Positions 38,000 through 57,721 of a DNA stretch of 64,000 bases are shown one piece after another. The stretch comes from an uncultured Tateyamaria sp. (GTDB taxonomy: Bacteria; Pseudomonadota; Alphaproteobacteria; Rhodobacterales; Rhodobacteraceae), in assembly GCF_947496075.1 (NCBI RefSeq), contig NZ_CANMBJ010000001.1:62001-126000 (forward strand), given 5' to 3'. Every line of letters begins with the position of its first letter. Positions within the stretch are counted from its first letter, which is position 1. Under the pieces are notes generated by a model that saw only the letters and a list, made by a program, of their open reading frames with translations, was not told the DNA's origin and did not search any database. A program made the translations under genes and the position numbers.

Positions 38000-38076
38000 G
38001 GGCCTGTAGCTCAATTGGTTAGAGCAGAGCGCTCATAACGCTTTGGTTGCGGGTTCAAGTCCTGCCGGGCCTACCA
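38000..38076 (+). tRNA. tRNA with CAT anticodon, probably tRNA-Ile2 (lysidine type)
   Basis: A full 77-nt cloverleaf including encoded CCA. The acceptor GGGCCTG pairs with CGGGCCT, the anticodon stem is GAGCG/CGCTT and the anticodon CAT is at 38034-38036. The acceptor has C4-G69 and C5-G68. These pairs are present in the Ile2 tRNA recognised by TilS but not in elongator tRNA-Met, so Ile2 is more likely. A plain Met label remains possible. Confidence 0.9.
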
Positions 38077-38084
38077 ACCGCCCT

Positions 38085-38531
38085 TCATGCTTTGCGGACG
38101 TGCCAGCCGACCGTCATAGTGACAACCGTATCACCATCGTCGTCGCGGATATCAACATTGATGTCGAAGGCCGTCTTGCCCACTTCTTGCAGCTCCTTGA
38201 CCAGTTCCGGCCCCGGACGTTCGGTTTTGGCGTGGGCCTCAAGACGCCCCTTCGCGATCTTGACGTAAGAGATGTTGGCGCCGGATGCGACAGGCCGCGC
38301 CTGAAAGATCATGGGACCAAAAGCACCAGCAAGGGCAGCACCTGATGCGGCTTCGCCCAGGGTGAACATGGCCCCTGCATGCTGGCTCTGGATGTGGTTG
38401 GATGTTTCAGGCCGTTGGTCCAGTGCTGCGACACCAATACCGTCGCCAACTTCAAGCAGTTCAACCCCAACGTGGTTGGCAAAGGGCACCGCCTTGCCGA
38501 GTTGGTCGCGGATCATGTCATACGGTGTCAT
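38085..38531 (-). CDS. Hotdog-fold thioesterase-like protein (DUF4442)
   Basis: 148 residues. The hotdog-fold pattern includes VGVELLEVGDGIGVAALDQ, HAGAMFTLGEAASGAALAG (helix with the acidic position) and ANISYVKIAKGRLEAHAKTE. It is closest to the PaaI/DUF4442 group of acyl-CoA thioesterase-like proteins. The substrate is unknown. It sits next to the CAU tRNA and is a single gene upstream of a histidine kinase gene on the same strand. Confidence 0.75.
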   Translation of the reverse strand: MTPYDMIRDQLGKAVPFANHVGVELLEVGDGIGVAALDQRPETSNHIQSQHAGAMFTLGEAASGAALAGAFGPMIFQARPVASGANISYVKIAKGRLEAHAKTERPGPELVKELQEVGKTAFDINVDIRDDDGDTVVTMTVGWHVRKA

Positions 38532-38606
38532 TTCAGGCGCTCCTGCTGTGCTGTGTCGTCAATAAAACCGATCCGTCCTGCGCGGCAAGCGTGCCGCTGC
38601 GGCACG

Positions 38607-39926
38607 TCACCGGGCGATGACGATATCGGCACGCAGACCACCGAGCCGCTCGCTTTCGCCGAGGCGCAGCACGCCACCATGGGCGCGCGCAATGTCGGTG
38701 GCGATGGCCAATCCCAGCCCGACACTACCGCCTTTGTCCTGATTTCGCGACGGATCAAGACGGGTGAAGGGGCGCTGCGCATCAGCGCGGCGGTCTTCTG
38801 GAATGCCCGGACCATCATCTTCGACCCGGAAGCGCAGCGACTTATCGGTAAGTGCCACGCTGACCTCGGCGCGCCTGCCGTAGCGCACCGCGTTGCTGAT
38901 CAAGTTACCAAGCGCCCGGCGCATCGCTATCGGGCGCAGCATGACCGTGCCCTGCCCATTCACCTCGTGCAACGTCACCGGTTGATCACCCCGCTGCGCA
39001 TCTTCGACAAGTGTTTGGGCCAGTGCAATCGGATCTACCGCCTTTGGCTCGCTTTCCCCGTCGCCCTTCGCGAAGTCAAGAAACGCGTCGATCATGTTCT
39101 GCATGTCGTCGACATCCGCTTCCAAAGCGTCGCGCGTGTCGTCATCGACCATCGAAAGGGCCAATCGCATCCGCGTCAGAGGCGTGCGCAGATCATGGCT
39201 AACGCCTGACAACATGAGTGTCCGTGTCTCCATCTGCCTTTCGATCCTGTTGCGCATGTCGACAAAAGCAGTCCCGGCTGCCCGCAACTCAGTGGCACCC
39301 GCCGGTACATAGGCCAGATGACGTCCCCGGCCAAAAGCTTCGGCAGCCCTTGCAAGCCTCCGGATCGGGCGCAGCTGATTGCGCAGATAGATAAACGACA
39401 CAAAGGTCGTCAGGACCGAGAATACGACCATGTAGACCAGCAATTGGTGCGGGTTTCGGGCCGAAACGCGGCGTCTGTCAAAGGTGATGGAAACCGGCCC
39501 AGTCCCGCTTTCGACTGCAATCTGCACCAAACCGCTCCCGGACAGATCGAAGGAACGGATCGCTGGGATCGTCTCCCCCAGACGTCGGATCACAACACGC
39601 CCGGAAAAGTCATCCCAATCGCGTTGATTGGGCGCATCCAGCGCCTCCTCCGGAATACGCTGCACAATCATGGCCAGCGGACCGGTTGCATCTAGTACGG
39701 CCTGCGTCACATCGGCGTCAGGTGGCAGATCAGACAAAACGTTCAATACTAGGTTTATCTCGCGCTCGACCGTGTCAGCCATCTGAACCGTCACACCTTC
39801 GAAATGGCGCTGGGCGAAAAGGACAGACACGACAAGCTGCACGACCACAACCGGCAGAAGAAGGATCAGCGCGGCGCGCGCGTAGATGCCACGGGGCATA
39901 TAATGTTTGAGCCAGGCAAAGGACAT
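38607..39926 (-). CDS. EnvZ-like sensor histidine kinase
   Basis: 439 residues from the ATG at 39926 (MSFAWLKHYMPRG); the frame is open further upstream but would overlap the divergent MBL gene. It has two membrane helices (about 14-35 and 155-175) flanking a periplasmic domain, then HAMP. The H-box is GVSHDLRTPLTRMRL. ATP-binding boxes are NLISNAVRYG, EDDGPGIPEDRR and SVGLGLAIATDIAR. It resembles EnvZ-family kinases. No response regulator gene is adjacent within the window. Confidence 0.85.
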   Translation of the reverse strand: MSFAWLKHYMPRGIYARAALILLLPVVVVQLVVSVLFAQRHFEGVTVQMADTVEREINLVLNVLSDLPPDADVTQAVLDATGPLAMIVQRIPEEALDAPNQRDWDDFSGRVVIRRLGETIPAIRSFDLSGSGLVQIAVESGTGPVSITFDRRRVSARNPHQLLVYMVVFSVLTTFVSFIYLRNQLRPIRRLARAAEAFGRGRHLAYVPAGATELRAAGTAFVDMRNRIERQMETRTLMLSGVSHDLRTPLTRMRLALSMVDDDTRDALEADVDDMQNMIDAFLDFAKGDGESEPKAVDPIALAQTLVEDAQRGDQPVTLHEVNGQGTVMLRPIAMRRALGNLISNAVRYGRRAEVSVALTDKSLRFRVEDDGPGIPEDRRADAQRPFTRLDPSRNQDKGGSVGLGLAIATDIARAHGGVLRLGESERLGGLRADIVIAR

Positions 39927-39969
39927 GGCGTAAACCCTATCGAGCCGCGATCCCAGACGAAAGACCACC

Positions 39970-40890
39970 ATGCTGCCGTCAGACGATTTTGATCCACCCA
40001 TAGGTATCTCCGAAGTACTGGAACTCGGCCTGCGCCGCATCGTGGCACCAAATCCATCGCCGATGACCTATCGAGGCACAAACACTTACCTTGTGGGCAC
40101 AACCGCTCTGGCGGTGATCGACCCGGGCCCAGACAGCGCGGCGCACCTTGACGCGGTCATGGGAGCAATCGGTTCAGAACAATTTGTATCGCATATCATC
40201 GTGACACATGCACATCTGGATCATTCTCCCTTGGCTGCCCCCCTTTCCAAGGCCACAGGCGCACCCGTTCTCGCGTTTGGAACAGCAACGGATGGGCGAA
40301 GCAGCGTTATGCAAGGCTTAGCGGACAACGGGCTTGTAGGCGGAGGAGAGGGTGTCGATATCTCCTTTGCGCCCGACACCCGACTACGCGACGGGGATGT
40401 GATCAACGGCCCGGATTGGCACCTTGATGTCATTCACACACCGGGGCATCTCGGCAATCATATCTGCCTTGGGTTTGGCGATGCTTGCCTGACGGCGGAT
40501 CACGTCATGGGATGGGCCAGTTCACTGGTGTCTCCACCTGACGGCGATCTGACAGATTTCATGGCCTCCTGCGAAAAGCTGCGCAGGAGGCGTTGGCGCG
40601 TTTTCTATCCCGGGCATGGAGGCCCAGTGATCGACCCGACCGCACGGCTGGAATGGTTGATCGCGCATCGTCGCACCCGGGAAGCCGCCATTCTTGCGAC
40701 GCTTGACAAAGGGCCCGCCACCGCAGTGCAGATCGCCCAACTTGTCTATGTGGATACGCCCAAGGCTCTCTTGCCTGCTGCCACGCGCAACGTATTGGCT
40801 CATCTGATCGACCTGATGGGTCGATCAGAGATCGAAGCCAGCGATCCATTGGCACATGACACCCGTTTTGCACGCATTGGTGGAGTTTGA
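39970..40890 (+). CDS. MBL-fold metallo-hydrolase (LACTB2/glyoxalase II-like)
   Basis: 306 residues. The metal-binding motif is VTHAHLDHSPLA (HxHxDH). Further ligands are in IHTPGHLGNHICL and the Asp of LTADHVMGW, with YPGHGG later. The C-terminal 80 residues form a winged-helix-like domain, as in LACTB2-type nucleases and hydrolases. The substrate is unknown (thioester, RNA or lactone). It is divergent from the kinase gene, with only about 40 bases between starts. Confidence 0.85.
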   Translation: MLPSDDFDPPIGISEVLELGLRRIVAPNPSPMTYRGTNTYLVGTTALAVIDPGPDSAAHLDAVMGAIGSEQFVSHIIVTHAHLDHSPLAAPLSKATGAPVLAFGTATDGRSSVMQGLADNGLVGGGEGVDISFAPDTRLRDGDVINGPDWHLDVIHTPGHLGNHICLGFGDACLTADHVMGWASSLVSPPDGDLTDFMASCEKLRRRRWRVFYPGHGGPVIDPTARLEWLIAHRRTREAAILATLDKGPATAVQIAQLVYVDTPKALLPAATRNVLAHLIDLMGRSEIEASDPLAHDTRFARIGGV

Positions 40891-40960
40891 TTTTTTTGTT
40901 CACGGGCCTGCAAAACCCTCTGGACGACCTGAATCGGCCTTGCTATACGGCGCGAACCGT

Positions 40961-41035
40961 TCCGGCGTAGCTCAGCGGTAGAGCAGTTGACTGTTAATCA
41001 ATTGGTCGTAGGTTCGATCCCTACCGCCGGAGCCA
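40961..41035 (+). tRNA. tRNA-Asn (GTT), attachment site of the genomic island
   Basis: A 75-nt cloverleaf including CCA. The acceptor TCCGGCG pairs with CGCCGGA and the anticodon GTT is at 40993-40995. From the anticodon loop to the 3' end it also forms the left copy of the 46-bp direct repeat; the gene stays intact after integration. Confidence 0.97.
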
Positions 41036-41036
41036 A
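40991..41036 (+). repeat. attL: left 46-bp direct repeat
   Basis: Begins CTGTTAATCAATTGGTCG and ends CGCCGGAGCCAA. Identical over 46 bases to 54195-54240, with the match lost on both sides. It lies within tRNA-Asn, from the anticodon loop to just past the CCA. Confidence 0.95.
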
Positions 41037-41186
41037 AACAACCATTTATTGTCAATGACTTAAGCCTATTTTGACGCATCTCAAGATGGCTTTATCGTGT
41101 GTTCTCTGGTTCACTGAACCAGGTTGGTGTAACTCCCGCGCAACCCGTCGTTTCGGCCGACTTTGCTGACTTTGCGATATCGGTAC
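41037..41186. other. Left end of the island, non-coding
   Basis: 150 bases between attL and the 3' end of vsr. It contains the end-proximal 16-bp repeat listed separately and no open frame of note. Confidence 0.5.
41108..41123 (+). repeat. End-proximal 16-bp repeat, left copy
   Basis: GGTTCACTGAACCAGG. The core GGTTC-N3-GAACC is palindromic. It matches the right copy at 54086-54101 in 14 of 16 positions, same orientation, the two differences being in the centre. It is 71 bases inside attL. Confidence 0.6.
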
Positions 41187-41633
41187 CTACCCGCCAAACT
41201 CGATTTGGCGGCCTCCAGCACCGCGAATGAAATCTCCAACCTGTTCAATCAATTCGTCTCCAATGCGCGGCATTACTGCGCACTCCCACACAATCGCCGT
41301 ACGCCAGCCAAGGCTTAGCAGTTGTGCGACCGCCTTAGCGTCCCTTTCTACGTTTGCATCGAACTTCTGCGTCCAGAACTCGATGTTCGTAGCCGGCTTT
41401 GTAGCTTTGCGACAGCCCGGATGCCGATGCCAGAAGCACCCGTGCACGAAGATCACGGTTTGCCACTTTGGCAATACGATGTCAGGTGTGCCAGGCAAGC
41501 GTCGCGCATTGATACGAAAGCGGAATCCCGCACGATGCAACGCCTTTCTGAGGGACACCTCTGGCTTGGTGTTCCTGCCCCGAATGTTCGACATCATTCG
41601 GGATCTGGTTCGACTGTCAACGATGTCCGCCAT
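41187..41633 (-). CDS. vsr: Very short patch repair endonuclease (Vsr)
   Basis: 148 residues from the ATG at 41633 (MADIVDSRTRSRMMSNIRG). Vsr blocks include TKPEVSLRKALHRAGFRFR and RLPGTPDIVLPKWQTVIFVHGCFWHRHPGC, with the catalytic Asp and zinc-binding Cys/His. A C-terminal GWRTAIVWECAV strand follows. Vsr nicks beside T:G mismatches caused by deamination of 5-methylcytosine. Divergent pairing with the adjacent cytosine-5 methyltransferase (85 bases between starts) is the expected functional couple. Confidence 0.93.
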   Translation of the reverse strand: MADIVDSRTRSRMMSNIRGRNTKPEVSLRKALHRAGFRFRINARRLPGTPDIVLPKWQTVIFVHGCFWHRHPGCRKATKPATNIEFWTQKFDANVERDAKAVAQLLSLGWRTAIVWECAVMPRIGDELIEQVGDFIRGAGGRQIEFGG

Positions 41634-41718
41634 GCACGCGACATAACACTCTTGCTGGCAAATTCGAGCTTCAGCGTGACGCGAAACCTGGTACAAGGCC
41701 TATCTCAAGGGGACACGA

Positions 41719-43212
41719 ATGACAAAAGAGTTTGCCATCATAGATCTGTTCGCCGGCCCGGGTGGGTTGGGCGAAGGATTCTCTCGGGCAGGTCGGGATG
41801 CAGACACGCCCATGAAAATCCATCTTTCGGTGGAAATGGATGATCATGCTGTCCAGACACTCCGTCTTCGTGCGTTTCTACGCTCATTTCGCGAGTTTCC
41901 GATTGAATATTACAACGCCCTGAATTCCGGCAGTGCTCTACCGGATTGGGCCGAGCTTTATCCGACGATTTGGAAACACGCTGAGCGTGAGGTCAGGCAA
42001 AGGGTTCTTGGTGAGAAGGGCGTCTTCGAGGAACTGGCGGTTGAGCTCGATAGGGCTCGTGAAGCCTACAGCGGAAATACAATCCTGATCGGGGGCCCTC
42101 CCTGCCAAGCTTACTCGCTGGCTGGTCGGTCCAGAAATTCGGGAAAGGCAAACTACGTCCTCGAGGAAGACCACAGGCACTACCTGTACCGTGAGTATGT
42201 TAGAATTCTCCATCGGCTTCGCCCAGCTGCTTTCGTCATGGAAAACGTCAAAGGCATGCTCTCGAGCAAAGTGGATGGCGGTGGCATTTTCAGTCGTGTT
42301 CTGGACGATCTCGAAGCTGCCGGAGACGGCTATGTCCTCCTGCCACTGTCAAAGACAGCGCCGGAAGACGGCACTCGTGCACCCGCGCAAGACTTTCTCA
42401 TAAGTGCTGAGGATCATGGTGTTCCCCAGGCACGTCATCGCGTGATCGTCGTCGGCATCCGCAAGGATATGGCAGAGGGACTGCATCTCGAAGAACCGCT
42501 TCTTGGTCAACCTCAGGCACTGGTGAGTGTAGAACAGGCCATCGGCGACATACCGATTCTGCGAAGCGGCTTGAGCAAAGGCGACACAGTCGAAGCTTGG
42601 CAAAAGGCGCTACGTAACCAAGCGTCGGCGATTGCAGCCTCGGAAGCTGTACCGGCGGAGGTCAGGGAAATTGCACGTTCGATAGAAAAGGCAAACGAAT
42701 TGCCTTTCCAACGCGTCAGCAGCAGCAAGCAACGGCCAAACGGAATGCCTCGTCATTTGCGAGGCTGGTTTCCAGACGATGGCCTCAAGGCCTTGCTACA
42801 GCACGAAACCCGTGGCCACATTCCGGGTGATCTCGGCCGATATCTCTTTTCATCAGCTTTCAGCAGAGCTTTTGGCAAAGCTCCCAAGCTTGTCGAATTT
42901 CCCGAATTCCTCCAACCAATGCACCGCAACCGCAGCACCGGGAAATTCGCTGACCGGTTCCGCACCCAAGTAGCGGATCGACCATCAACTACGGTGACCA
43001 GCCACATTTCGAAAGACGGGCATTACTTCATACACCCGGATCCGCTACAGTGTCGTTCATTGACGGTTCGCGAGGCAGCCCGTCTCCAGACATTTCCGGA
43101 CAATTATTTCTTTTGCGGCCCGCGCACCAAGCAATATCATCAGGTGGGCAACGCGGTTCCCCCCTACCTCGCTTGGCAGATCGCAGAGTCCGTTCGAAAG
43201 CTGCTCGATTAG
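41719..43212 (+). CDS. DNA (cytosine-5) methyltransferase
   Basis: 497 residues. Motif I is IIDLFAGPGGLGEGF, motif IV GGPPCQAYSLAGR with the catalytic Cys129, motif VI FVMENVKGML, motif VIII QARHRVIVV and motif X QVGNAVPPYLAWQIAESV. The target-recognition region is about residues 260-420. The insertion after motif II (residues 50-115) is longer than in small enzymes. It methylates cytosine C5 in a DNA site that cannot be predicted here, presumably to mark self DNA for the neighbouring effector operon. Confidence 0.95.
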   Translation: MTKEFAIIDLFAGPGGLGEGFSRAGRDADTPMKIHLSVEMDDHAVQTLRLRAFLRSFREFPIEYYNALNSGSALPDWAELYPTIWKHAEREVRQRVLGEKGVFEELAVELDRAREAYSGNTILIGGPPCQAYSLAGRSRNSGKANYVLEEDHRHYLYREYVRILHRLRPAAFVMENVKGMLSSKVDGGGIFSRVLDDLEAAGDGYVLLPLSKTAPEDGTRAPAQDFLISAEDHGVPQARHRVIVVGIRKDMAEGLHLEEPLLGQPQALVSVEQAIGDIPILRSGLSKGDTVEAWQKALRNQASAIAASEAVPAEVREIARSIEKANELPFQRVSSSKQRPNGMPRHLRGWFPDDGLKALLQHETRGHIPGDLGRYLFSSAFSRAFGKAPKLVEFPEFLQPMHRNRSTGKFADRFRTQVADRPSTTVTSHISKDGHYFIHPDPLQCRSLTVREAARLQTFPDNYFFCGPRTKQYHQVGNAVPPYLAWQIAESVRKLLD

Positions 43213-43295
43213 AGGGCAGCTTTCTTAGGACAAGACGCTCTGTCGAAATGGCGAATTATCAGCCTTGATGCCGCGCTCAGAGGCGAGAACCCTCC

Positions 43296-45386
43296 TCACG
43301 AAGCCGACGTTTCATCAATCTTCGAAAATCCATGTTCTTCGAGTTTCCTGAGCAGCTCGAGCGCAAACACCGTCTGCTTCTCTGTAGGCAATCTCGATGG
43401 CATCTTTGAACAGACATCCAAAACGCCAAACTCAGAGGGCGAAAGCAGCTTGTTGGCTCGCCCCCAAACTTTTGCCTCTGACCAGAACGGCGCTCCCAAT
43501 TCGAAGACCCTTGTTTGTGCCTCAACGCCCTTTGTCAGGTTTTCATCATCAGTTATTTCGCGCTCCTCAATCTTCTCTTCCTCGGGATCGACAAGTATTT
43601 GGAAGAATTCATCCGGATAGGAAAGTTCGCGTTTGCGAAACTGTTCCCAACACGCCTGTTTCTTGGCCCATTCGCTCATGTTCCGAACGCCCTCAGGGGG
43701 ATTGGTGATCAACTGTTGAGCCTCGGCGCCAGCAACCAGCAATGCGCTCTCAAGAGCTGCAGGCATGTCCTGCGATCGCCAAACACGGCCAAGATCAATT
43801 ACCTTGTCCTGCTCCCGTGCGTCATGTGCAACCTTGGCAATGGCGTATGTCACGATGTTCGCGCGGTAGCCGCCTTCATACCATTCCTGAGCCGAAACGA
43901 GCTTCTCCACCTTTCGGAAGATGATTGCCTTCGAAATCAGATGCCTGAACCAAGCCTCATTGATACGATCACCATTCCGACCCCAAGTTTTTTCGATGGT
44001 TTTGGCGAAAGCTGCAAAGTTCTTTTGCGCGCCCTTCGAGACATCTTCAGGCTTGCCAGCCCAGGAATTCTCAAATTTGGCAAGATCTGTTTTTGTGAAA
44101 AACTGCTTTCGCGGGAACTCAGCATCCCACTTTTTGCGTTCTGAAACTGACAGTTTGCCGCGCTGATCGGCATATTGTCCCCGAGCGCGTTCGTAGAACC
44201 ATTTGGTTTCCCGATAGCCTTCAGCTCCGGGCGGGGCCAAAATCTTTCTCGAAAGCTCCTCGATCTTTACATGGAACGGATGATTGGCGAAGAAATCGGC
44301 AGCATTTACTTTGTTCTGACTGTTCGCAAATTCCGAAATTCTCGGGACCACGGTGTCCGAAAGGATTGGCGGGACAACATTCAACTTCATCTGGACGAAG
44401 ATGTCCCTGATACCCTCACCGGCCATCTTGCGCGCAGCATGGATGGATGCTGTGGTTTGACCGCCGTTGACGATCTGAAGGTTGTCTGCCCGCGTTATTA
44501 TCAGGCCAACTTCCGTTTGCTCGAGCTTAACCGCCTCGGCAGTTGCGGCGAGCCCATTATTGTATGCAAGGAACATGTGAGGTTCCTCGACGATAGTTTT
44601 CCTGATTCCACGATTCACGTTCCCCCTCGCCTGGAGGAAGCTGCGAACGTTCGATTCAAGAAGACGTGCGCCCCATTTGTCGTAGATCTGAGCGAGCTGT
44701 TCGCCCGGGATCACTGCAATGTAGCTCTCGAGCGCTGCATCCGAGCCCGAAGCCTTGAGAACCGGAATGCCACCACCGAAGTGTTCCGCGAAATCGATGG
44801 TCAAATCGGCCCGCGCCTTGCCTTGTTCCACATAGGCTTGAAGACGCTTAAGATCCCAAACGTTATATGTGACCGGCTTACCGTCGATTGCGCCGGCAGG
44901 CATTGCATCAACTTTGGCCCGATTATCCGAATTGGTGACGAATATCAGTTTGACCTTGTCGATACTGTTCCATCGAGTGCTGATCAGATCAGCCAAACCT
45001 GCACCAAGGCTTGTCTCCTCGAGTTCCTCTCTGAACTCCTCCTTGCGTGCGTGCCTCAAGTACTCGACCAGTCTTTTGAAACGGGCCCTGAGAAAGGCCG
45101 CATCTGTTATTCTAACTTCGGGTGAAAATTCGAAATCGCAGAGAATGAGGGACAGGATACCATCCGCGTTCAGAGGGTCTCCGCCGGATCCTGTCACCTC
45201 AAGAAGCACACCATTCTTACCCGTACCATCGAAATAGGCGTAATCGCTTTGATCGATTTCGCCAGCCTCCGTCAGGATTTCACCGATCACCTCAAAGAAT
45301 GCTTCTTGTGTGTACAATCCCAAAGCATCGGCATCACCCTGTATGTCGGCGATAAAGGTTTGATGGAATTCCGCAAGATCAGACAT
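43296..45386 (-). CDS. AIPR family (abortive infection phage resistance) protein
   Basis: 696 residues. The AIPR core is in the middle: HMFLAYNNGLAATAEAV and ADNLQIVNGGQTTASIHAA, with VFVQMKLNVV following. The N-terminal part contains VTGSGGDPLNADGILSL, VKLIFVTNSDN and VTYNVWDLKRLQAYVEQG. AIPR proteins are named from abortive-infection loci and appear in restriction-modification neighbourhoods; their activity is not established. It is the last gene of the four-gene operon and overlaps the PD-(D/E)XK gene by eight bases. Confidence 0.88.
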   Translation of the reverse strand: MSDLAEFHQTFIADIQGDADALGLYTQEAFFEVIGEILTEAGEIDQSDYAYFDGTGKNGVLLEVTGSGGDPLNADGILSLILCDFEFSPEVRITDAAFLRARFKRLVEYLRHARKEEFREELEETSLGAGLADLISTRWNSIDKVKLIFVTNSDNRAKVDAMPAGAIDGKPVTYNVWDLKRLQAYVEQGKARADLTIDFAEHFGGGIPVLKASGSDAALESYIAVIPGEQLAQIYDKWGARLLESNVRSFLQARGNVNRGIRKTIVEEPHMFLAYNNGLAATAEAVKLEQTEVGLIITRADNLQIVNGGQTTASIHAARKMAGEGIRDIFVQMKLNVVPPILSDTVVPRISEFANSQNKVNAADFFANHPFHVKIEELSRKILAPPGAEGYRETKWFYERARGQYADQRGKLSVSERKKWDAEFPRKQFFTKTDLAKFENSWAGKPEDVSKGAQKNFAAFAKTIEKTWGRNGDRINEAWFRHLISKAIIFRKVEKLVSAQEWYEGGYRANIVTYAIAKVAHDAREQDKVIDLGRVWRSQDMPAALESALLVAGAEAQQLITNPPEGVRNMSEWAKKQACWEQFRKRELSYPDEFFQILVDPEEEKIEEREITDDENLTKGVEAQTRVFELGAPFWSEAKVWGRANKLLSPSEFGVLDVCSKMPSRLPTEKQTVFALELLRKLEEHGFSKIDETSAS

Positions 45387-46356
45387 CTGCGGCTTCCTTG
45401 TTCAGCAGAATATCCAATGCAAAGTTCCGCTCAAATTCCGAGCAGGCATCAAGCCGAATAGTATACTCAACCCCGTCGACTCCCTGTGGCATCGGCGGGA
45501 TCAACCTTGGAAAACCATCCAAGACCTCGAACGTTCGGTTGGTTCCGAGATGCCATCGTCTTTCCTGCTCAACCTGTTCAGGTGAATATCCAATAGTCGC
45601 AAGACGTTGCTCCCAAAGATCAAGCGCCATTATGTCACCATCAAAGAGCCGTTCGGTCTGCTCTACGTGATCTATTAGGTTTTCGCCTTCGGAAGCGAGC
45701 GAAGTATCCACGTCCTGAACCCGCAGGAACAAGTCGGCGCCATCGATGTCCATCAGTTGCGCTTCCGAGGAGATGCGCACTTTGGGGTGAGCAGCGCTTC
45801 GTCTTGCCTTTATCTCGAAGAATTTCCCGGGGAGTTCAAAATCTTTCGCGCTTTCATCGGGCCCTTTCCATGCTTCCACCGCCTTGAGAGCTCCAAGATG
45901 GTGAACAAGCTCCCGTAGAAAGGCCAACTCAGCGACAAGCCCTCTCTGTTCTTCAAGCGACATCCCTTGGTTTCGTCCACCTCTGAGCAGGTGGTGCCAT
46001 CTCAAGGTTCGCCTCACGGCACGAGCCAACGCACTTTGAAGATCTGGTGCCTCTTCCGCAGCTTTCACCACATCGCGACACAGCGTTTCAAAGAGATCAA
46101 CATGGGTGCTTTCGCCTAAAGTCACGCAATAGCAATTCTGCTCATCAACCAACTGATAAGAGACGTCGACATGCTTCAGTTTTGGCAGCGGGCGAATTTC
46201 CGATGTTTCGTCAGACAACCGCAGCAGGAGTCCCACCGACTTGTCAGGCATCCTGACCCAAAAAAAGTCATGCTTTCCTTGGCTGTCAACACGGCGGGCT
46301 TCGCTGATCTGAATGGTATTCCAAGGATCCTCAATCATCTTCCCAAGCCCCTTCAT
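45379..46356 (-). CDS. PD-(D/E)XK motif nuclease-like protein (DUF4420 type)
   Basis: 325 residues; an internal Met at position 7 (46338) is an alternative start that still overlaps the Z1 stop. The nuclease core is visible as D172 and E181-x-K183 in DFELPGKFFEIKARRSA, with a preceding acidic helix (GLVAELAFLREL). This matches the PD-(D/E)XK family often found with Z1 and AIPR genes. It is the probable DNA-cleaving subunit. Overlap with both neighbours indicates coupled translation and possibly one complex. Confidence 0.85.
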   Translation of the reverse strand: MKGLGKMIEDPWNTIQISEARRVDSQGKHDFFWVRMPDKSVGLLLRLSDETSEIRPLPKLKHVDVSYQLVDEQNCYCVTLGESTHVDLFETLCRDVVKAAEEAPDLQSALARAVRRTLRWHHLLRGGRNQGMSLEEQRGLVAELAFLRELVHHLGALKAVEAWKGPDESAKDFELPGKFFEIKARRSAAHPKVRISSEAQLMDIDGADLFLRVQDVDTSLASEGENLIDHVEQTERLFDGDIMALDLWEQRLATIGYSPEQVEQERRWHLGTNRTFEVLDGFPRLIPPMPQGVDGVEYTIRLDACSEFERNFALDILLNKEAADV

Positions 46357-49069
46357 CGTCCTCGTCTGCTCCGTAAATCTCGCGGAATTTCACGGTGTTG
46401 ATGATGTATTCCACCCGTTCATTTGGCTTGCCCGAGGGTGGAAGGCTTATACTCCAACCGATTACCGGTTCTTCCGGCAGGCGATCCAAATACGGCAGAT
46501 CGCTTTCTTCTGGCGGGCGCACCTTGACTAAATGAAGCACGAACAATGGCTTGTCGCGCACTTGGCGATAGATCCTGTCCGGGAAGGACACCCGTTTTCC
46601 ATCCGGTTTCTTGTCCTCCTTCAAATCCCGCAGGTATTGAAGCTCGGCTTCCTTGGCCTTCGCGGGATCAACGCCGACCTTTTCCACGCCTCTGGAAGCG
46701 ATGCGGGATCTCTTGCCGCTCATTGAAAGGACGTGATCCCGAAGATCCTTGTATCCCACGCTGCGAACCTGTGGCCCAAGTCGCCAATCCACCAATGGAA
46801 ATGGCTCAACATCACTCGAAACGCTCGTTATGAGAACGTCCCAAAACTCCAGCTCATCGTCCTTCCGATCTCGGATATATGCACGAATTGGTCCAGGCTG
46901 CGTCAGGAATGCCTGCTCGTGGTTCCTCCAGCCGAGGAGGAACTCGTCTATCGGGCCAACCGGCACATCCCTCAGTAGATAGCCGCCGCTTACCTTCTCT
47001 GCAGCAACCGTTGTGAAACCTCGATCGCCGAGGTCTTGCATTAGCCGCTCCGCAGAACTCTGGTTCGCCGCGATATCGTCTGGTTTCGCACTGATCTTGG
47101 CTGTTTCAACCCAAGCGTTCGAAAGACCGATCATAATGTGCTTCTGGCCAGATCCTATCTTGTTGCGGGCGGTCACAAGCAGTGCAGCCGGGTGGCTACG
47201 AACCGCGAGGCCAAAATCGGCCGGCGTGGCTTTCGCCTTTTCCATCTTCTTGAGTTCAAGGTGCAGTTCTTCGCTGGCCTCGGCAATATGCGCATACCAG
47301 TCGATAGCTTCCGAGGGCATCCAAATCCGACATAGGTCTTCGAAGCCCCCGCGATACCCGAACCAACGCCCCATCTGCATGAGCGTGTCGTACATCATGG
47401 TGTTTCGCAGAAACCAAGTCACTGTCAGGCCTTCGAGTGTCAGGCCACGAGAAAGGGAGAACCCTCCAACCGCAATAACCGTTTGTCCGGTAGTGGTGTC
47501 ACCCGAATAGTCCAAGCCATTGGCTCGGCTGTTCACTTCCACAACTTTCGCTGCCGCGACGGCTTCCAACAAAGCGGCCTGGATGCCCTCCCAATCAGGT
47601 TCGGCGTCGGCGTATTCATTCAGCCAAGTCTCGTGCAAAGCAGAGATTTGCGGGTCCCGCAGGCCGTCGGTTCCTCGGGAACCATTCACGCGAAGAGAAT
47701 CCAAGATTGCCGTCAAATATTCGTGTAGACGATTCCGCAATCTGCCCTGGACGTTTGTGAAACGGCTGGCGTTCACAAGCATGGAACAGTGTGATGCCGC
47801 TTGCCCTCGAAGATTTCGAATACAACGTGCAATCAGGAATGCACGGAGAGCTTCTTTCAGGCTTTCAGGAAGTTCTTCGACAGTCTGATCGATCTTGTGT
47901 TTGATTGGCAGAATGTCTTCATTGTCAGCAATGTACCTTAGCCAAACAGGATCACCCTCATCCGGGATGCCATCGATGAAAATCTTGCTCGCTCCGAAGT
48001 AGTTCGTTGGCGCATCAAGCCCGACTATGAAATGCTTGGGAAAAAGGTCTTCTTTCAGCGCATCATCATACTGATCAGGATCAACAAAGATGTTTGCAAA
48101 TGGCGTCGCCGTGTACCCGACATAGCAACTGCGATGGAACAGATTCAGTAGATCACGGATTTGGCCGTTGATCTTGGTGATCTCCTCCTTGGAGTACTTC
48201 GTGTTGATCGATGCGTTATCCGCCTCATCATCGATCAGAAGCATTGGCTGATCAATCATCAGATCATCGCCACGAGCACTATTCTCGCGCAGCCAATCGA
48301 GCAAGTTCCTAAGAGTATTGTGGTTTTTCTTGATTACAAGAACCACTGGCACCTTGTAGGAATCGATCTGGCTCGTGTTTGTCGATGCGGTATCCTTCTT
48401 GAAATCGAATAGAGTGTTTGTAAGGCCTACAGGGACATGTCTGTCATCAAATAGTCCGACGCCGATGGCTCGGTTGCCTTTCTTGCCAAGCGTGGCAAGC
48501 CTTCCGGTATCACGCCCTATGAAACCCTCATCGATCCGTTCCTGGGTCTGGTTGCGTAGGTTATTGTGGATACCAGCAATAACGATGATCAGGCGGTAAC
48601 CGGCGTCCGCTGCCTTGCAGATGAGGCCGGTGTAGTTGGCAGTCTTGCCGCTTTGAACGTGGCCAACGACCATACCGCGCCGATCCCACTGCTCGGCGAG
48701 CTTGGGGTTGCCGAGCCGGCCGAGAATTCTGTCCGTGACCTCGTCAGTCGTGGTTACGACGTCCTGCGGCAAACCGTTTTTGTGCAGCAGCTTTTTGTAA
48801 CGATCCCAGTAAAAGGGTTTGATGCTCGACTTGGCATCGTCAAGCCAGGGCTTGAAGCTTTCATCATCCACCATGGCGCCAAGCCCCATGGTGATCCCGA
48901 AGCGCTGTTCGATATCACGCGCAAGCTGCTCAAGAGCCTCTTGCTCCGCGTTGACATTCAACGCAACATTCATGGTGGCAATGAAGCTGCGAAGATCGTC
49001 TCCGCTCTTGCGCTCATGCGCCAGCGACTGGGACACGACACCATCCAAATGCCTGAGCTGCGCAGTCAT
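46331..49069 (-). CDS. Z1 domain protein, superfamily II helicase-like ATPase
   Basis: 912 residues. Walker A is GHVQSGKTANY (136-143 core), Walker B LLIDDEADN (280-284 DDEAD) and motif III YTATPFANIF (319-324). Motif VI is MQMGRWFGYRGGFEDLCRIW, with the arginine finger. The C-terminal two-fifths is the Z1 region. This class of ATPase occurs with MORC/MutL-like GHKL proteins in restriction-type loci, where it is expected to translocate on or remodel DNA. It overlaps the upstream GHKL gene by ATGA. Confidence 0.9.
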   Translation of the reverse strand: MTAQLRHLDGVVSQSLAHERKSGDDLRSFIATMNVALNVNAEQEALEQLARDIEQRFGITMGLGAMVDDESFKPWLDDAKSSIKPFYWDRYKKLLHKNGLPQDVVTTTDEVTDRILGRLGNPKLAEQWDRRGMVVGHVQSGKTANYTGLICKAADAGYRLIIVIAGIHNNLRNQTQERIDEGFIGRDTGRLATLGKKGNRAIGVGLFDDRHVPVGLTNTLFDFKKDTASTNTSQIDSYKVPVVLVIKKNHNTLRNLLDWLRENSARGDDLMIDQPMLLIDDEADNASINTKYSKEEITKINGQIRDLLNLFHRSCYVGYTATPFANIFVDPDQYDDALKEDLFPKHFIVGLDAPTNYFGASKIFIDGIPDEGDPVWLRYIADNEDILPIKHKIDQTVEELPESLKEALRAFLIARCIRNLRGQAASHCSMLVNASRFTNVQGRLRNRLHEYLTAILDSLRVNGSRGTDGLRDPQISALHETWLNEYADAEPDWEGIQAALLEAVAAAKVVEVNSRANGLDYSGDTTTGQTVIAVGGFSLSRGLTLEGLTVTWFLRNTMMYDTLMQMGRWFGYRGGFEDLCRIWMPSEAIDWYAHIAEASEELHLELKKMEKAKATPADFGLAVRSHPAALLVTARNKIGSGQKHIMIGLSNAWVETAKISAKPDDIAANQSSAERLMQDLGDRGFTTVAAEKVSGGYLLRDVPVGPIDEFLLGWRNHEQAFLTQPGPIRAYIRDRKDDELEFWDVLITSVSSDVEPFPLVDWRLGPQVRSVGYKDLRDHVLSMSGKRSRIASRGVEKVGVDPAKAKEAELQYLRDLKEDKKPDGKRVSFPDRIYRQVRDKPLFVLHLVKVRPPEESDLPYLDRLPEEPVIGWSISLPPSGKPNERVEYIINTVKFREIYGADEDDEGAWEDD

Positions 49070-50574
49070 GAATTTTCTCCTTGCACAATATCTTCAACGA
49101 GGCGCCGAATGGGGGCCTTGTGGTTCAAAAATGGTTCAGTGGAGCCCAGAGTTCGCACCACGTCTGGACCAGACATGCCTATCTTCCGAAGCTCCTTGAT
49201 TGCCGTTTCGGCCATATCTGCAAGCTCCTGAAAATCCGACTCATCGGCTTCGACGCTTTCTGCGCTTCCAAGCATGTCGGCGTGCAGCGCAGGGACCGGA
49301 AGGCCTGATCCGAGCAATGCAATGCACGCTCGAAAGCTATGCCGAAACTCTTCAGGCAAAATCTCCGCAAAGCCCGTGATGGAAGGATGCTCGGTGTTCG
49401 GACGATAGATGATCTTTCCATCCTTCAGAACTCGGTTCCAAAGTGGAAGGTTCTCATCCGCCACCAGCTTTCGACCTCGGCGCTGGTAAGTCCGTTTGGA
49501 GGTCCCCTGCAATCGTTCCACGATCTTGCGAAGACGCTCTCGAACAACAGGCGGCATCTGGGCAGATGCCTTCTTGACGTCAATCTTCCAATCCGCGTCC
49601 ATCGTGTTGGGAATGTCCACTCTCACGCGGGATAGCTTCGTGAGCTCTTTTTGCCTTGCAAGGCCCAACCAGCTGCCGGCGATGATCAGTCGCTTCTCCC
49701 TGTAGATGTAGAATCCCTGTGAGCGCAGATGGCCCTCGCGTCCTCCGAGTTCTTCCCAAGCCGACTTCGTCATCATCTTATGGTGGGGCAACGTAAAGCA
49801 CTGAGTGACGACATTGCCATGCGCCAACGGCAAGACCTCTTCGGGGTCTCGTTGGGTCGCTTTATGATCGGTAGCAAATGGGTCGATCGGTGAAAGATGG
49901 CGTCCATTCAACTTCAACCGAAGTTTCGGTCTGCTGCCCTCCATAAACCGATGGAAACAGAGGCGCAGGTGTCGTTCGGCACCTGACAGGGCGTTGTTGA
50001 TCTCGCCGGCTCGCTTTGGCGTGTCATTGCGATAGTTGGTCGAAAGTCGATCGAGCTTTCGCCAGAGAACAACGGTTCCAGTTTCTGGAATTTCTGCGGC
50101 CGCAGGCACATCTGAACGATCGTCCTCGAGGTCAACACTCCAGACATTGGATTGTGCGACCTTGTCCAGGTCCCAAGTCGCAGCAGCCACGTTGGCAGAT
50201 TTACGGGAAATTACGGTCAATTGCCGGCATTGCGAGAAACTTGCGCTTTTCAAGCCAAGCCCAAACCGCCCAAGATCGTGGCCTTCCCGTTCTTCCAGCG
50301 GGTTCCGGGATCCCGGTCTCATGGCCTCGATCAATTCGACCTCCGTCATTCCAAAACCATCATCAACAATAGCTATCCACGGTTCATCGGTCGTGGTTTC
50401 GGCGAGGATTTCGACCTTTGATGCTCCGGCAGTAATGGAATTGTCGATGATATCGGCCATCGCAGTCTCAAGCGTATAGCCAAAGTCTCGCATCCCTTCG
50501 ATCAAGGATGCTGCATGAGGTGTTGCGTCTGCCTGCCTTTTCTCCGCCAATTTCCGTTTCTCGATCGTTTGCAA
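49066..50574 (-). CDS. GHKL ATPase (MORC/MutL-like), first gene of the defence operon
   Basis: 502 residues. The Bergerat ATP-binding fold shows the N-box ETAMADIIDNSITAGA (D41, N45), the G1 box IVDDGFGM (71-76) and the G2 box GRFGLGLKSASFSQ. The catalytic Glu of MutL/MORC is replaced by Asp41, as far as can be aligned by eye. The C-terminal part has a KKASAQMPPVVRERLRKIV helix and a short acidic tail. ATP-driven dimer closure on DNA is expected. It is the most 5' gene of the operon, transcribed away from the small-gene region. Confidence 0.9.
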   Translation of the reverse strand: MQTIEKRKLAEKRQADATPHAASLIEGMRDFGYTLETAMADIIDNSITAGASKVEILAETTTDEPWIAIVDDGFGMTEVELIEAMRPGSRNPLEEREGHDLGRFGLGLKSASFSQCRQLTVISRKSANVAAATWDLDKVAQSNVWSVDLEDDRSDVPAAAEIPETGTVVLWRKLDRLSTNYRNDTPKRAGEINNALSGAERHLRLCFHRFMEGSRPKLRLKLNGRHLSPIDPFATDHKATQRDPEEVLPLAHGNVVTQCFTLPHHKMMTKSAWEELGGREGHLRSQGFYIYREKRLIIAGSWLGLARQKELTKLSRVRVDIPNTMDADWKIDVKKASAQMPPVVRERLRKIVERLQGTSKRTYQRRGRKLVADENLPLWNRVLKDGKIIYRPNTEHPSITGFAEILPEEFRHSFRACIALLGSGLPVPALHADMLGSAESVEADESDFQELADMAETAIKELRKIGMSGPDVVRTLGSTEPFLNHKAPIRRLVEDIVQGENS

Positions 50575-51112
50575 AATTGATTGGGCGCGATTTTATGGCT
50601 GCATCACACCGTCGTTGAGAAACTGTTTCCAACGAGAAAATTGGATTTCCTGGAAGCTTGAACTTCTTGAGGCACCGCACTTGCGGATCAATGCGGTGTT
50701 AGCTTCAACCAATTGTTTTTCTCAAACCGTCGTTACATTCTACAGCCACTCGCAAGGGCGCCGTAGCCTCGCAAGGCTTTGATAACGTTCGCCGCTAAGT
50801 TGAGCAAGCCTGATTGAGCACGGATTCAGCAAAGCCTGAAAAAGCCGACATCGGGTATTTCTGAGACACAATGAATTTTCGTCAGCAACCCCAAAAAAGC
50901 AGCATCCTCGGACTTCGTTTTTCTTGTCCTGGCCAATCTAATTGAAGGCCAAGACAAGGAAAAAACGACCCGAGAAAAATACCCACAAGACAGAGACTTT
51001 TAACCGCGGGATCGCAGCCCCGCAGACATGAAATCGCGCAAACGAAAGGAGCCGCAAGCCGCCTTGAGCCATCGGCAAGTCCGCCGGTGGCAAGCTGCAA
51101 AGGAGGTCCAAC
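50575..51112. other. Regulatory gap between the defence operon and the small-gene region
   Basis: About 540 AT-richer bases holding the divergent promoters of the GHKL operon and of the gene at 51113. A long imperfect inverted repeat lies at 50916-50967. No convincing gene is seen. Confidence 0.5.
50916..50967. repeat. Long imperfect inverted repeat
   Basis: CGTTTTTCTTGTCCTGGCC and GGCCAAGACAAG-GAAAAAACG pair over about 18 positions with one mismatch and one extra base, around a 14-base AT-rich loop. The T and A runs are part of the stem, so it is not a usual terminator. It could be a protein-binding site or an RNA structure ahead of the gene at 51113. Confidence 0.6.
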
Positions 51113-51490
51113 ATGTTGGATTTTTCGCAAGACACCCTGCGGGATTTTCGGGGGTTCGTTCAACACCATCGCGAGGGGCTGCAAAACGCATCCCTGCTTC
51201 TCGGAGGGCAAGCCTGGCTACAGCGCATGCAGGCGCTCATCGACGACGTGACTGGATCGACCGTTCTGACACGTCGGATGAGCGTAGAGCTGCAGGCTCC
51301 GGGCGATTTGCTGTCACTGGAGAATGTCCATGACGTTGATCGTATCGAGGCTGCCTATTTCGCGGATCTGGATCCCGCGTCGCCCTATGTCGAGGATATC
51401 TGCCTTCTCGCCGAGGCGATGAAGGATCAGACGCTTCGGTGCGGCGCGATCGACGCTGTCCTTCGGCCGGTCCTGATGATCGCTTCCTGA
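51113..51490 (+). CDS. Unknown protein, island cargo
   Basis: 125 residues with an excellent ribosome site (AAAGGAGGTCC). The sequence starts LDFSQDTLRDFRGFVQHHREG and is mostly helical and acidic. It contains no Cys cluster, HTH or nuclease motif that I can identify. It lies 78 bases before a second unknown gene on the same strand, probably in one transcript running towards the excisionase and integrase genes. Confidence 0.6.
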   Translation: MLDFSQDTLRDFRGFVQHHREGLQNASLLLGGQAWLQRMQALIDDVTGSTVLTRRMSVELQAPGDLLSLENVHDVDRIEAAYFADLDPASPYVEDICLLAEAMKDQTLRCGAIDAVLRPVLMIAS

Positions 51491-51567
51491 AATGAAGGGC
51501 CGCCACCGTTGTTTGCGATCAGAGGCGGTCGCCAATCCCCAGATCAGGAAAAGTGAAAGGATACCCA

Positions 51568-51987
51568 ATGCAAGCGACATTGCAGGACGAACTCGAACGG
51601 CTGGTTCTCACGGCCATCAGGAAGGGGCGCTGGCTGGCAGAAGGCTGGCGCGACGCAGGTCTGACCGTGCAAGACCCGTTGAAACGGCTCCTGCCCCAGA
51701 CGCTGGATCGTCTGACTGCGGGAGAACAGATGGCCATCAACGATGAAACCGCGCTGGACCTGATGGGTGACGCCATCAGAAAGGCGCTGAACGAATTCAG
51801 CCCGAAATACGGAGACGTTGTTATGCGAGAAGAATTCTCCGAGCAGGTGTTCCTGCGCGAACGTATCGAGACGCTTCGAAAGCTGGCGGAGCGCTGGAAA
51901 GCATATCAGCGTGCCCGCCGCAATGTCCGCGACAGCATCGCCGCTGTGAAGCAGTCATCCTGGTTGCTGCGTCGCGAGTGTATTTAG
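51568..51987 (+). CDS. Unknown helical protein, island cargo
   Basis: 139 residues from the ATG at 51568 (AAAGGA upstream); a Met five codons earlier is in frame. The N-terminal half contains DELERLVLTAIRKGRWLAEG. The C-terminal 55 residues are a basic, coiled-coil-like helix (ERIETLRKLAERWKAYQRARR). No family is recognised. It shares a transcript with the previous unknown gene and is followed by a hairpin. Confidence 0.55.
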   Translation: MQATLQDELERLVLTAIRKGRWLAEGWRDAGLTVQDPLKRLLPQTLDRLTAGEQMAINDETALDLMGDAIRKALNEFSPKYGDVVMREEFSEQVFLRERIETLRKLAERWKAYQRARRNVRDSIAAVKQSSWLLRRECI

Positions 51988-52010
51988 GTTCGGCAACAGC
52001 CAAATCGTGG

Positions 52011-52030
52011 GGGTGCCCCGAAGGGCACCC
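52011..52030 (+). terminator. Hairpin after the unknown gene pair
   Basis: GGGTGCCC and GGGCACCC form a perfect eight-pair stem with a CGAA tetraloop, 24 bases after the stop. No strong T run follows, so termination efficiency is uncertain. Confidence 0.55.
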
Positions 52031-52434
52031 TCAAATTCAAAATCGGGTATCGGTAAGAATTTTGTCGATCAACTCGGAGATTCAACCGTCTCAAGAGTGT
52101 CGATCAGCGGCGAAATATTCTCCGCGTCGAGCATGCAATATTGTGAGGATCCGCACTCAACCCCGCAAAAACTCGGAAAAGTATTGTTTGATTTCCGATG
52201 CTTATAAGAAACTTTGATGTTCGTGCTTCTTTTTTTGTTTGGCTAATGTTCTTTCCGCCAAACGCAACGAAGCAAGGAGCCTCAGCGAGCAAATAGGGAC
52301 CGGAATTGAGTCGTTCAAGTCCAGTCCACATTCCATCGCTGCAAGAGCAGCAGCCACCCCGAAACATCTTGTTGCGGTCGCTGTGACCGCCCGGACCGAC
52401 AGGTCTGTAAAAAACCGGAAAAAAGGAAATGGTC
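52031..52434. other. Leader region of the excisionase-like genes
   Basis: About 400 bases without a convincing gene; a frame from a TTG at 52239 has poor composition and no ribosome site. It presumably contains the promoter for the excisionase and integrase genes. Confidence 0.45.
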
Positions 52435-52596
52435 ATGGAAAACGTCTTTACCCTCCAACAATTGGCTGAGCGCTGGAAGTGCTCGCCTCAAACCATCAGG
52501 TCTGCCATCGATAGCGGTCTGGTGCCGTGCTTCAAGGTCGGCAGGATGACCCGCGTCTCGAAGAAGGTCGTCACCGCCCACGAGCGGCGCACCTAA
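52435..52596 (+). CDS. Excisionase-like helix-turn-helix protein, copy 1
   Basis: 53 residues with AAAAGGA upstream. The pattern FTLQQLAERWKCSPQTIRSAID, then GLVPCFKVGRMTRVSKK, is the winged MerR/Xis-type HTH (HTH_17). Such proteins direct excision by the neighbouring integrase or act as repressors. It is similar to copy 2, encoded 98 bases downstream. It is too short to attract routine gene calling. Confidence 0.8.
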   Translation: MENVFTLQQLAERWKCSPQTIRSAIDSGLVPCFKVGRMTRVSKKVVTAHERRT

Positions 52597-52694
52597 ACAC
52601 CCCAACAATGAGAGCTGATGGCGATCTCCGGAGCCGAGCCTCCGGCCAGTGACCTGCGTCCGATCGCCATCGGCTCTCGGAAAGGACAGACAAG

Positions 52695-52868
52695 ATGGAA
52701 AAAAGTTCGACACCCGAGCAGCTCGCAAAGCGCTGGCACTGCTCTTCCAACACCATCCGGAATCTCATCTCAGCCGGCAAACTCGACGCCTACCGCGTCG
52801 GAAAAAAGCTGCTGCGCATCCCGGCCACTGCAATCGAGGAGTATGAAAATTGCACGACATCAGAATAG
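52695..52868 (+). CDS. Excisionase-like helix-turn-helix protein, copy 2
   Basis: 57 residues with AAAGGA upstream. TPEQLAKRWHCSSNTIRNLIS and KLDAYRVGKKLLRIPATAIEEY match copy 1 position by position (QLAxRWxCSxxTIRxxIxxG). It is the better excisionase candidate because the integrase frame starts inside its 3' end (TTG at 52850), with GAGGAG within this gene as the ribosome site. Xis and Int would then be translationally coupled. Confidence 0.82.
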   Translation: MEKSSTPEQLAKRWHCSSNTIRNLISAGKLDAYRVGKKLLRIPATAIEEYENCTTSE

Positions 52869-53920
52869 GAAAATATCGCGGTGGTTTTTGCGTCACGTGG
52901 TATGAGGTTGTTGACGGAAAAAGGTAGCGGCGTCGGTTCCAATTGGAGGCCAAGACTCTTTCGGAGGCCAAACCGGAAGGGCAAAGGGTCTACAATTCCC
53001 AACTTCTATTGTTGGGGTCCGAACTGACCTTCAAAAAGGTCTGGGAGGCCTTAGGAGAGGATCTCGAGGGCCGCCGCACAGCTGAGCAGATGAAATCGAT
53101 TTGGAAGAACGTCGGACCGTTTTTCGGAAGCTACCATCCTCTCGAAATCGACGACGCATTGGTCAGAAAATATCTGGAAGTGAGCCGAAAAGAATTTCAA
53201 AAGAAAAACGGGCGCGAGATCTCAAGAACGACGCTCTTTCATGACGTTAACTTTGTCCAGATGGCGCTTAACTTTGCAAAGCGAAAAAAGTTGATCAAGG
53301 AGTCGCCTCACCAGCTAAGGAAACCATCAAGATCACGCCCGGTGGACCGCTGGCTCACACAGACGGAAATCGATACTTTGCTGGCCGAAACCCTGCAAAC
53401 GCCACATCTTCACATCGCCACAGTTCTTATGCTATCAACTGCTGGCAGATTGGGAGCAATTCTGGAACTCACCTGGGACCAGGTCGACTTCACCAATCGA
53501 ACGATCGATCTCAGGGACGATGAATTAGAACACGTCAAAAATCGTGCCTTTGTTCCAATGAATGACGGAACAACGGATTTGCTCCTGGATTGGCGTGAAT
53601 CCTGCTATTCGGACTTTGTGGTTGAGTACAAGGGTGATCGGGTTCACAGCATCCACAACGCGTTCAGGAAAACCGTAAAGCGCGCGAAGCTACCTGGCAA
53701 GGTGACACCTCATGTGTTGCGCCACACTTCTGCAGTGCATCTCATCGCCAATGGCCACGAAATGTCCCGGGTATCGCAATACCTTGGACATTCCTCGGCC
53801 AAGGTGACCGAAAAGATCTACGCTCGCTATGCGCCGGATCATCTTCGAAAGGAATCAGACACGGTAGACTTCACCAAAGGGCGAGGCTTCCAACTGAGAA
53901 AACCTGTATCAAGGAAATAG
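52850..53920 (+). pseudogene. Tyrosine integrase with in-frame amber codon
   Basis: The frame starts at a TTG at 52850 and reads HDIRIGKYRGGFCVTWYE, a typical arm-binding N-terminus. It meets TAG at 52925-52927 and continues in the same frame RRRFQLEAKTLSEAK to the end. The catalytic domain is complete: counted from a TTG at 52943, R169 (TAGRLGAIL), H257-x-x-R260 (HVLRHTSAVH), H283 (YLGHSS) and Y293 (KIYARY). Either the gene is inactivated, the stop is read through, or a shortened protein starts at 52943. The last lacks a good ribosome site. The gene reads towards attR. Confidence 0.8.
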
Positions 53921-53951
53921 GGTTTGCTTCCAGAGGGCTTCCATGAGACCC

Positions 53952-53983
53952 GGCCCGCCGATCGAGGCGGGCCTATTCGTTTT
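53952..53983 (+). terminator. Terminator after the integrase gene
   Basis: GGCCCGCC and GGCGGGCC form a perfect eight-pair stem with a GATCGA loop, followed by TATTCGTTTT. It lies 32 bases after the integrase stop. Confidence 0.75.
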
Positions 53984-54194
53984 ACCACTCCGGTCTTAGA
54001 CTGAGATCAAGTATCGATCGTTGATCGTTCGTGGTGCTCGGCTATTCACTTATGACGTTGGAGACAACGCTACTATTTGTGCGCAGGTTCAAGGAACCAG
54101 GGTCCCGCTTGAAAGGCGCCTCGGATGCATGAACCCATGTGCCAAACACGCCCATATGCACCAAATATCAATAGGTTAGCTGCAGAATACCTGG
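53984..54194. other. Right end of the island, non-coding
   Basis: About 210 bases between the integrase terminator and attR. They contain the right copy of the 16-bp end repeat and no gene. Confidence 0.5.
54086..54101 (+). repeat. End-proximal 16-bp repeat, right copy
   Basis: GGTTCAAGGAACCAGG, the partner of 41108-41123, 93 bases inside attR. Candidate integrase or excisionase arm site. Confidence 0.6.
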
Positions 54195-54240
54195 CTGTTA
54201 ATCAATTGGTCGTAGGTTCGATCCCTACCGCCGGAGCCAA
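54195..54240 (+). repeat. attR: right 46-bp direct repeat
   Basis: Identical to 41,036 and the 45 bases before it. It is a partial tRNA-Asn copy from the anticodon loop onward, without the D-arm and 5' acceptor strand, so it is not a functional tRNA. Confidence 0.95.
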
Positions 54241-54293
54241 TTCCCCCAAAATAAAATGCGTAGTCAGAACTGCCGCGCCGATTCCGCTGTCAG

Positions 54294-55160
54294 TCAGATC
54301 GCATTGCTGATGCCTGTAACCGGTGTTGTAACGCCAGTGATAGCGGATAGCGCTTTCAGAAATTGGGTGTACGGAGCCTCTACCGCATACAGAATGTCAC
54401 CATCCCCGATGTTGAACCGTCCGCCAAAGAACAGGTCAGATGGTTGGGTCAGATCAAAGGCATAGATGGCTTGCTGCTGTCCGGTAAAGGCCGCGCCTGC
54501 CAACTGTTGCTACCTCTCCGGGGACTCTTCGCCCAGGACAAACACGCTGCTGGGATAGCCCGATTGCGGTGCCAAGCCGCCGACGAGGCCAAGTGTTTCA
54601 ATCAGGTTGATCGTTGGTTTCGGAAACTCGACAAGGGCCTGCCCGCTCACCGCGCCGATCCCGGTAAAGGCACGTCGGTCCTGCCGGACCGTGATCTGAT
54701 CCCCCGGGAGCAAAGCAACGTCAAACCGCGGCTCTGCCAAAAGATCATCCAGCCAATATGCTGCCGGTCGTTTCACCGCGTTGTACCAGAACCTCGGTCA
54801 GTTCCGATTCGACCGTAAACCCACCTGCACCTCGGTCAGCGTGGTGGGTCCACCAACCGTTTCAAACAGTCCATCATCGACGTTTTCTGAGATCGTCAGG
54901 TTCAACAGATCGCCGGAATAAATCAACTCCGCGTCAATGCGGCCATGGGCCAGAAAGCTGTTCGGAAAGCAGCTTCGCGCGCTGAAGTCCTCTGACCCAG
55001 CAATGCGTGCAACACGGGCGTCGACGGGAACAGCCAGCACTTCTGCATTCAACGCCTCTGCCAATGCAAGTATTTCACGTGCATTCGGTCCGGGACGCGG
55101 GAAGCCGCATGCGACAAGGGCGCAGCAAAGAAGCCCAAGTTAGAGAGTTTTCCGCACCAT
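54294..55160 (-). pseudogene. Decayed polysaccharide export lipoprotein gene (Wza/KpsD family)
   Basis: Read on the minus strand from ATG 55160, the frame gives a lipoprotein signal (LLCCALVACG). It continues with LNAEVLAVPVDARVARI, LIYSGDLLNLTISENVDDG, then FDVALLPGDQITVRQDRRAFTGIGA and TINLIETLGLVGGL. These are the conserved stretches of roseobacter polysaccharide export proteins. The frame has stops at 55140-55142 (TAA), 54798-54800 (TGA) and 54510-54512 (TAG). An apparent frameshift lies near 54760, and the central domain between VQVG and the LPGDQ block is missing. It lies next to attR and beside the DUF6778 gene that normally accompanies it. Confidence 0.82.
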
Positions 55161-55219
55161 CCCGATACCGCCGAAACAAGTCTTGCGCACCTGTCGGTGC
55201 TGCCGAAAAAACGAGCCGC

Positions 55220-55873
55220 TCAAATACCAACGCGGGAAAAGGTCTGCCGAACATCCGGCCCTGTCCCGAGCCAACCGGCAATCACATTTGCAACATGGTT
55301 CACGATCCGAACGCGCTGGGTCTGCCCCGCCGCCTCTGCATCCAGAGCTTGCTGCCCGCTAAAGGCGACAAGATCTGCCGACACGTCCGGCTCCGCCGCC
55401 AGAACCGCACCGCTGCGCGCATCGACGACCTGAATGGCAAAGTTGATGTTGTGCACACCCGCAGCCGAAAGCTGCCTCCGCGTCCGATCCGTCACTGCGT
55501 GAAAGCGGGTCACCGTCACGCGCAGATCGACGGCACGCCCCCGATTCCGCAACCCCGCGGCTCCCTTTTCGATTGCCTCGCGCATAATGCGTTCGACCTG
55601 TGCGTAGCGGTCACCGGGCAGCTCACCGCGCCACACGATATCTGCCTCTGCAGAGAACGTATTGGCTTCGGTAACGGTCAGCGTCCGCGGTACGTCCACC
55701 GACACAGCATTCAGTCGCCAACCTTTCGATTGTTCTGCGCTGGGATTCTGATCGTAGTTCGTTTCCCAAACCTGCGTGCAAGCCGAAAGCGCGAAGGCTG
55801 CGAAAACCCCCAAACTGATCTTCCGAAAAGCACGAACTCTTCTCGTCAAACTCACCGTCAAAGCCTTGTACAC
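55220..55873 (-). CDS. DUF6778 family lipoprotein
   Basis: 217 residues from a GTG with GAGG upstream. The lipoprotein signal is ISLGVFAAFALSACTQ. Conserved blocks are NTFSAEADIVWRGE, VDLRVTVTRFHAVTDRTRR, NFAIQVVDARSGAVLA and the C-terminal VRIVNHVANVIAGWLGTGPDVR. This family occurs beside polysaccharide export genes in roseobacters. The gene itself is intact although the export gene next to it is broken, so its role here may be lost or served by another locus. Confidence 0.78.
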   Translation of the reverse strand: MYKALTVSLTRRVRAFRKISLGVFAAFALSACTQVWETNYDQNPSAEQSKGWRLNAVSVDVPRTLTVTEANTFSAEADIVWRGELPGDRYAQVERIMREAIEKGAAGLRNRGRAVDLRVTVTRFHAVTDRTRRQLSAAGVHNINFAIQVVDARSGAVLAAEPDVSADLVAFSGQQALDAEAAGQTQRVRIVNHVANVIAGWLGTGPDVRQTFSRVGI

Positions 55874-56690: not shown

Positions 56691-56709
56691 CCCATCGCAC
56701 GGATGGTCG

Positions 56710-57627: not shown

Positions 57628-57721
57628 GGATGGCCCCCTTGCAGAACCTCATGCCACCGCATTGCGGTACGGGGCAAGAGTGCGCGATTGCAAAACCTGC
57701 GGCACGGGGATACGACCGCGC

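Follow-up and report, generated by a model that had tools for sequence, protein, structure and literature searches.

Gene content of the locus

We examined a stretch of 64,000 nucleotides (hereafter the window; positions 62,001 to 126,000 of contig NZ_CANMBJ010000001.1) from an uncultured Tateyamaria sp., which carries a four-gene operon homologous to mzaBCDE of the MZA system, with a C5 cytosine DNA methyltransferase and a Vsr-type endonuclease beside it (Table 1). The four genes are adjacent on one strand and overlap by 4, 26 and 8 bases, so that their reading as one operon, proposed in an earlier note on this DNA, stands. The same note had assigned the products as a GHKL ATPase, a Z1 ATPase, a PD-(D/E)XK nuclease and an AIPR protein; these assignments were confirmed by profile matches to Pfam, PADLOC and NCBIfam for all four proteins, and the gene set was found to recur elsewhere.

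The motifs described as intact are indeed retained. The MzaB homologue combines a GHKL module with the S5 motif GhXhhpXXRhl characteristic of prokaryotic MORC proteins (residues 287-297, GFYIYREKRLI), in which G287, Y289, Y291, R292, R295 and L296 are unchanged in 26 of 26 sequences, and its top-scoring solved structures are MORC2, MORC4 and MORC3. The predicted model of the DUF4420 protein has a restriction-endonuclease fold with E-D-ExK residues, and E143, D172, E181 and K183 do not vary in any of 44 sequences. According to its model and fold comparison, the AIPR protein consists of a restriction-endonuclease-like fold (residues 1-191), which is probably a pseudo-nuclease, a ParB/Srx-like domain (212-360) and a helical C-terminus.

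Table 1. Features of the mzaBCDE locus, in window coordinates.
Feature	Position	Strand	Evidence
tRNA-Asn(gtt), integration target	40961..41035	+	ARAGORN
attL-like 46-bp repeat, 3' part of tRNA-Asn	40991..41036	.	identical to 54195-54240
Vsr-type mismatch endonuclease, 169 aa	41187..41696	-	Pfam Vsr 98 bits; TIGR00632 136 bits, above cut-off
C5 cytosine DNA methyltransferase, 497 aa, 'class A'	41719..43212	+	Pfam 165 bits; conserved GPPCQAYS and ENV blocks
AIPR protein, MzaE homologue, 696 aa	43296..45386	-	Pfam; NCBIfam MzaE 350.6 bits; model and fold comparison
DUF4420 PD-(D/E)XK nuclease, MzaD homologue, 325 aa	45379..46356	-	Pfam 220 bits; REase-fold (restriction-endonuclease) model
MzaC homologue, between MzaD and MzaB homologues	46331..49069	-	
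GHKL/MORC ATPase, MzaB homologue, 502 aa	49066..50574	-	Pfam HATPase_c_3 111 bits; NCBIfam MzaB 345 bits
Uncharacterised 125-aa open reading frame (ORF) of element	51113..51490	+	no Pfam match
Uncharacterised 144-aa ORF of element	51553..51987	+	no Pfam match
Small HTH_17 protein	52435..52596	+	Pfam HTH_17 34 bits
Small HTH_17 protein	52695..52868	+	Pfam HTH_17 40 bits
Tyrosine integrase, 325 aa	52943..53920	+	Pfam Phage_integrase 80 bits
attR-like 46-bp repeat, right element end	54195..54240	.	identical to 40991..41036

Assignment to MZA

Neighbouring homologues of MzaB, MzaC, MzaD and MzaE follow in that order on the same strand, which is the gene order of MZA (mzaABCDE), reportedly introduced as an anti-phage system by Gao et al. 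in 2020. The best matches of all four core proteins are the PADLOC and NCBIfam Mza models. Their scores lie below the NCBIfam equivalog cut-offs (345, 544, 101 and 351 bits for B, C, D and E, against 850, 1500, 420 and 1050), and a hidden Markov model seeded by E. coli MzaA found no match to MzaA, the sigma-70 family factor upstream of mzaB, in window 38000-58000. At a Planctomycetota MZA locus (L126 15729-17936) a second AIPR-like gene immediately follows the first, and an MzaA-type locus carries, besides its full MzaB, a short GHKL-like ORF ahead of the sigma factor (L061 4127-4561).

The earlier note was aware of no demonstrated mechanism for precisely these four genes. As far as the literature was searched this holds, as we found no mechanism of MZA there; a Pseudomonas paper merely counts Mza across strains, and MutL, AIPR and MORC are all absent from the text of a YprA preprint. 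The set itself had already been named, as MzaB-E of MZA, and Miller, Stern and Burstein (2022; PMC9523054) describe a set with this composition, their 'Type II', among putative defence systems. The window system is real, apparently intact and well conserved, and it belongs to a kind described before rather than being new. The earlier inference of a restriction-modification role holds up, and it is fair to regard the window copy as a predicted modification-sensitive nuclease.

The linked methyltransferase and Vsr

The methyltransferase and Vsr were originally noted as lying beside the operon. Comparison shows them to be near-constant members of the related systems that we sampled. In these systems the methyltransferase often runs opposite to the core, is found on either side of it, and is exchanged while the core remains together. 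An exception is E. coli MZA, which has no linked methyltransferase and whose host has a resident Dcm/Vsr. These comparisons suggest that the methyltransferase belongs regularly to the system and does not lie beside it by chance. Both it and Vsr are best regarded as members.

This pattern bears on two other explanations. MzaBCDE could be an abortive-infection or DNA-structure sensor of phage replication intermediates, similar to Hachiman or DISARM, with the methyltransferase and Vsr doing no more than dampening self-targeting or being independent passengers. One would not expect a passenger to persist in 69 of 71 systems across 22 changes of placement, and the invariance of the DUF4420 nuclease residues also argues against such a sensor, which we consider possible but somewhat doubtful. 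Alternatively, the methyltransferase could be the specificity subunit of a restriction complex, like PglX/BrxX in BREX, so that its change would alter both mark and target and leave the other subunits as they are. Monomeric C5 methyltransferases normally work alone, and neither the frequent opposite transcription on either side of the core nor an E. coli MZA lacking a linked methyltransferase fits this arrangement, making it quite unlikely.

Over 152 columns, the window Vsr shares 45% identity with its E. coli counterpart. Sorted by methyltransferase class, Vsr is present in 80 of 84 class A, 7 of 7 class D and 9 of 15 class O systems, with median scores to E. coli Vsr of 116, 127 and 80.5 bits, respectively, which is suggestive of one Vsr kind shared by class A and class D systems. 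Vsr was considered as a tracer of the target, but since the Vsr tree has long branches, with 44 of its 94 inner branches left open, we draw no conclusion from it. Given the 38-53% identity of class D methyltransferases to E. coli Dcm, and the CCWGG mark ascribed to DISARM, CCWGG was considered as a target common to all MZA methyltransferases and rejected: the target-recognition regions of class A enzymes and Dcm align unconvincingly, and in a Listeria lineage that carries mza the modified site is GCWGC instead.

A possible role in methylation sensing

We put forward, as a speculative and on balance unlikely proposal, that MzaBCDE supplies the restriction side of a modular system in which 5-methylcytosine counts as 'self' whatever the sequence around it. 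The ParB/Srx-like domain of the AIPR protein would be the sensor, and any C5 methyltransferase (class A, Dcm-like, of another class or resident) that marks the host densely enough would suffice; the canonical E. coli MZA would be a methyltransferase-less edition relying on host Dcm and Vsr. If this were true, a laboratory strain that is dcm-null would be predicted to suffer toxicity or uncontrolled action from E. coli MZA. The near-constancy of the linked genes in the sampled systems and the exchange of the methyltransferase, together with the E. coli exception, lead to a simple question, namely whether Dcm methylation protects DNA from MZA. MORC-family ATPases are known chiefly from eukaryotic gene silencing, and MZA could supply a tractable bacterial model for them.

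An integrated element at tRNA-Asn

Taken together, the block forms one integrated element, which the earlier note had not recognised. From their position, both HTH_17 proteins would be excisionase/AlpA-like. The integrase frame runs on upstream of its listed start, past an in-frame TAG (52850-52943), a sign that the integrase may lack its 5' end and that the element may be immobile. The same TAG would fit a degenerate or inactive island remnant, an explanation we find highly improbable.

The 125-aa ORF, possibly an accessory gene, shares 38% identity with a relative beside a further MZA locus (L042). The tRNA-Asn resembles an integration hotspot in the genus (window 40961-54240; loci L066, L070, L071 and L207). 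A 42%-identical MZA lies 4.3 kb from it in genome G002; in G016 the site holds CBASS (with a 2TM effector and a cyclase) together with SduA, in G013 it holds phage-like genes, and in G017 it is empty.

Comparison with other described systems

The window class A methyltransferase scores highest against the DrmMII model of DISARM. The available parts of the DISARM literature share the idea of an ATPase damped by 5-methylcytosine, and DISARM is said there to mark CCWGG (PMC9142583, PMC5957327, PMC12926258). PADLOC models of DrmA, DrmB and DrmC had no match at E<=0.01 in nine window proteins (for the methyltransferase, among the best 25 of 57 families).

MzaBCDE could also carry out ordinary sequence-specific ATP-dependent restriction of the CglI type, with one core subunit reading a fixed site and co-evolving with its own methyltransferase, which we regard as rather doubtful. 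In CglI/NgoAVII a PLD protein carrying a B3 domain serves as the nuclease, unlike here, and MORC, DUF4420 and AIPR are unmentioned in the available part of the source; such a nuclease gave no Pfam match at E<=0.01 in the nine scanned window proteins.

The AIPR plus MORC combination that marks Type II of Miller et al. is present in the window operon. For the putative transcriptional regulator of that type, the window offers the two HTH_17 ORFs adjoining the integrase, which are more likely excision genes. In the part of that article covered here, 'DNA repair endonucleases' are tied to Type I only, and the terms Vsr and 'very short patch' are absent from the main text (PMC9523054).

A further description is that of Iyer, Abhiman and Aravind (2008; PMC2292703), whose third type of MORC operon is this type of neighbourhood and for which a restriction-modification role was proposed from context. 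It comprises MORC with GhXhhpXXRhl, a superfamily II helicase with DThhQXuRhFG and a nuclease with E-D-ExK, and cytosine methylases and Vsr nucleases are frequent members, with AIPR named in the legend of Figure 2. As far as the accessible portion of that article goes, the window system does not differ from it in kind.
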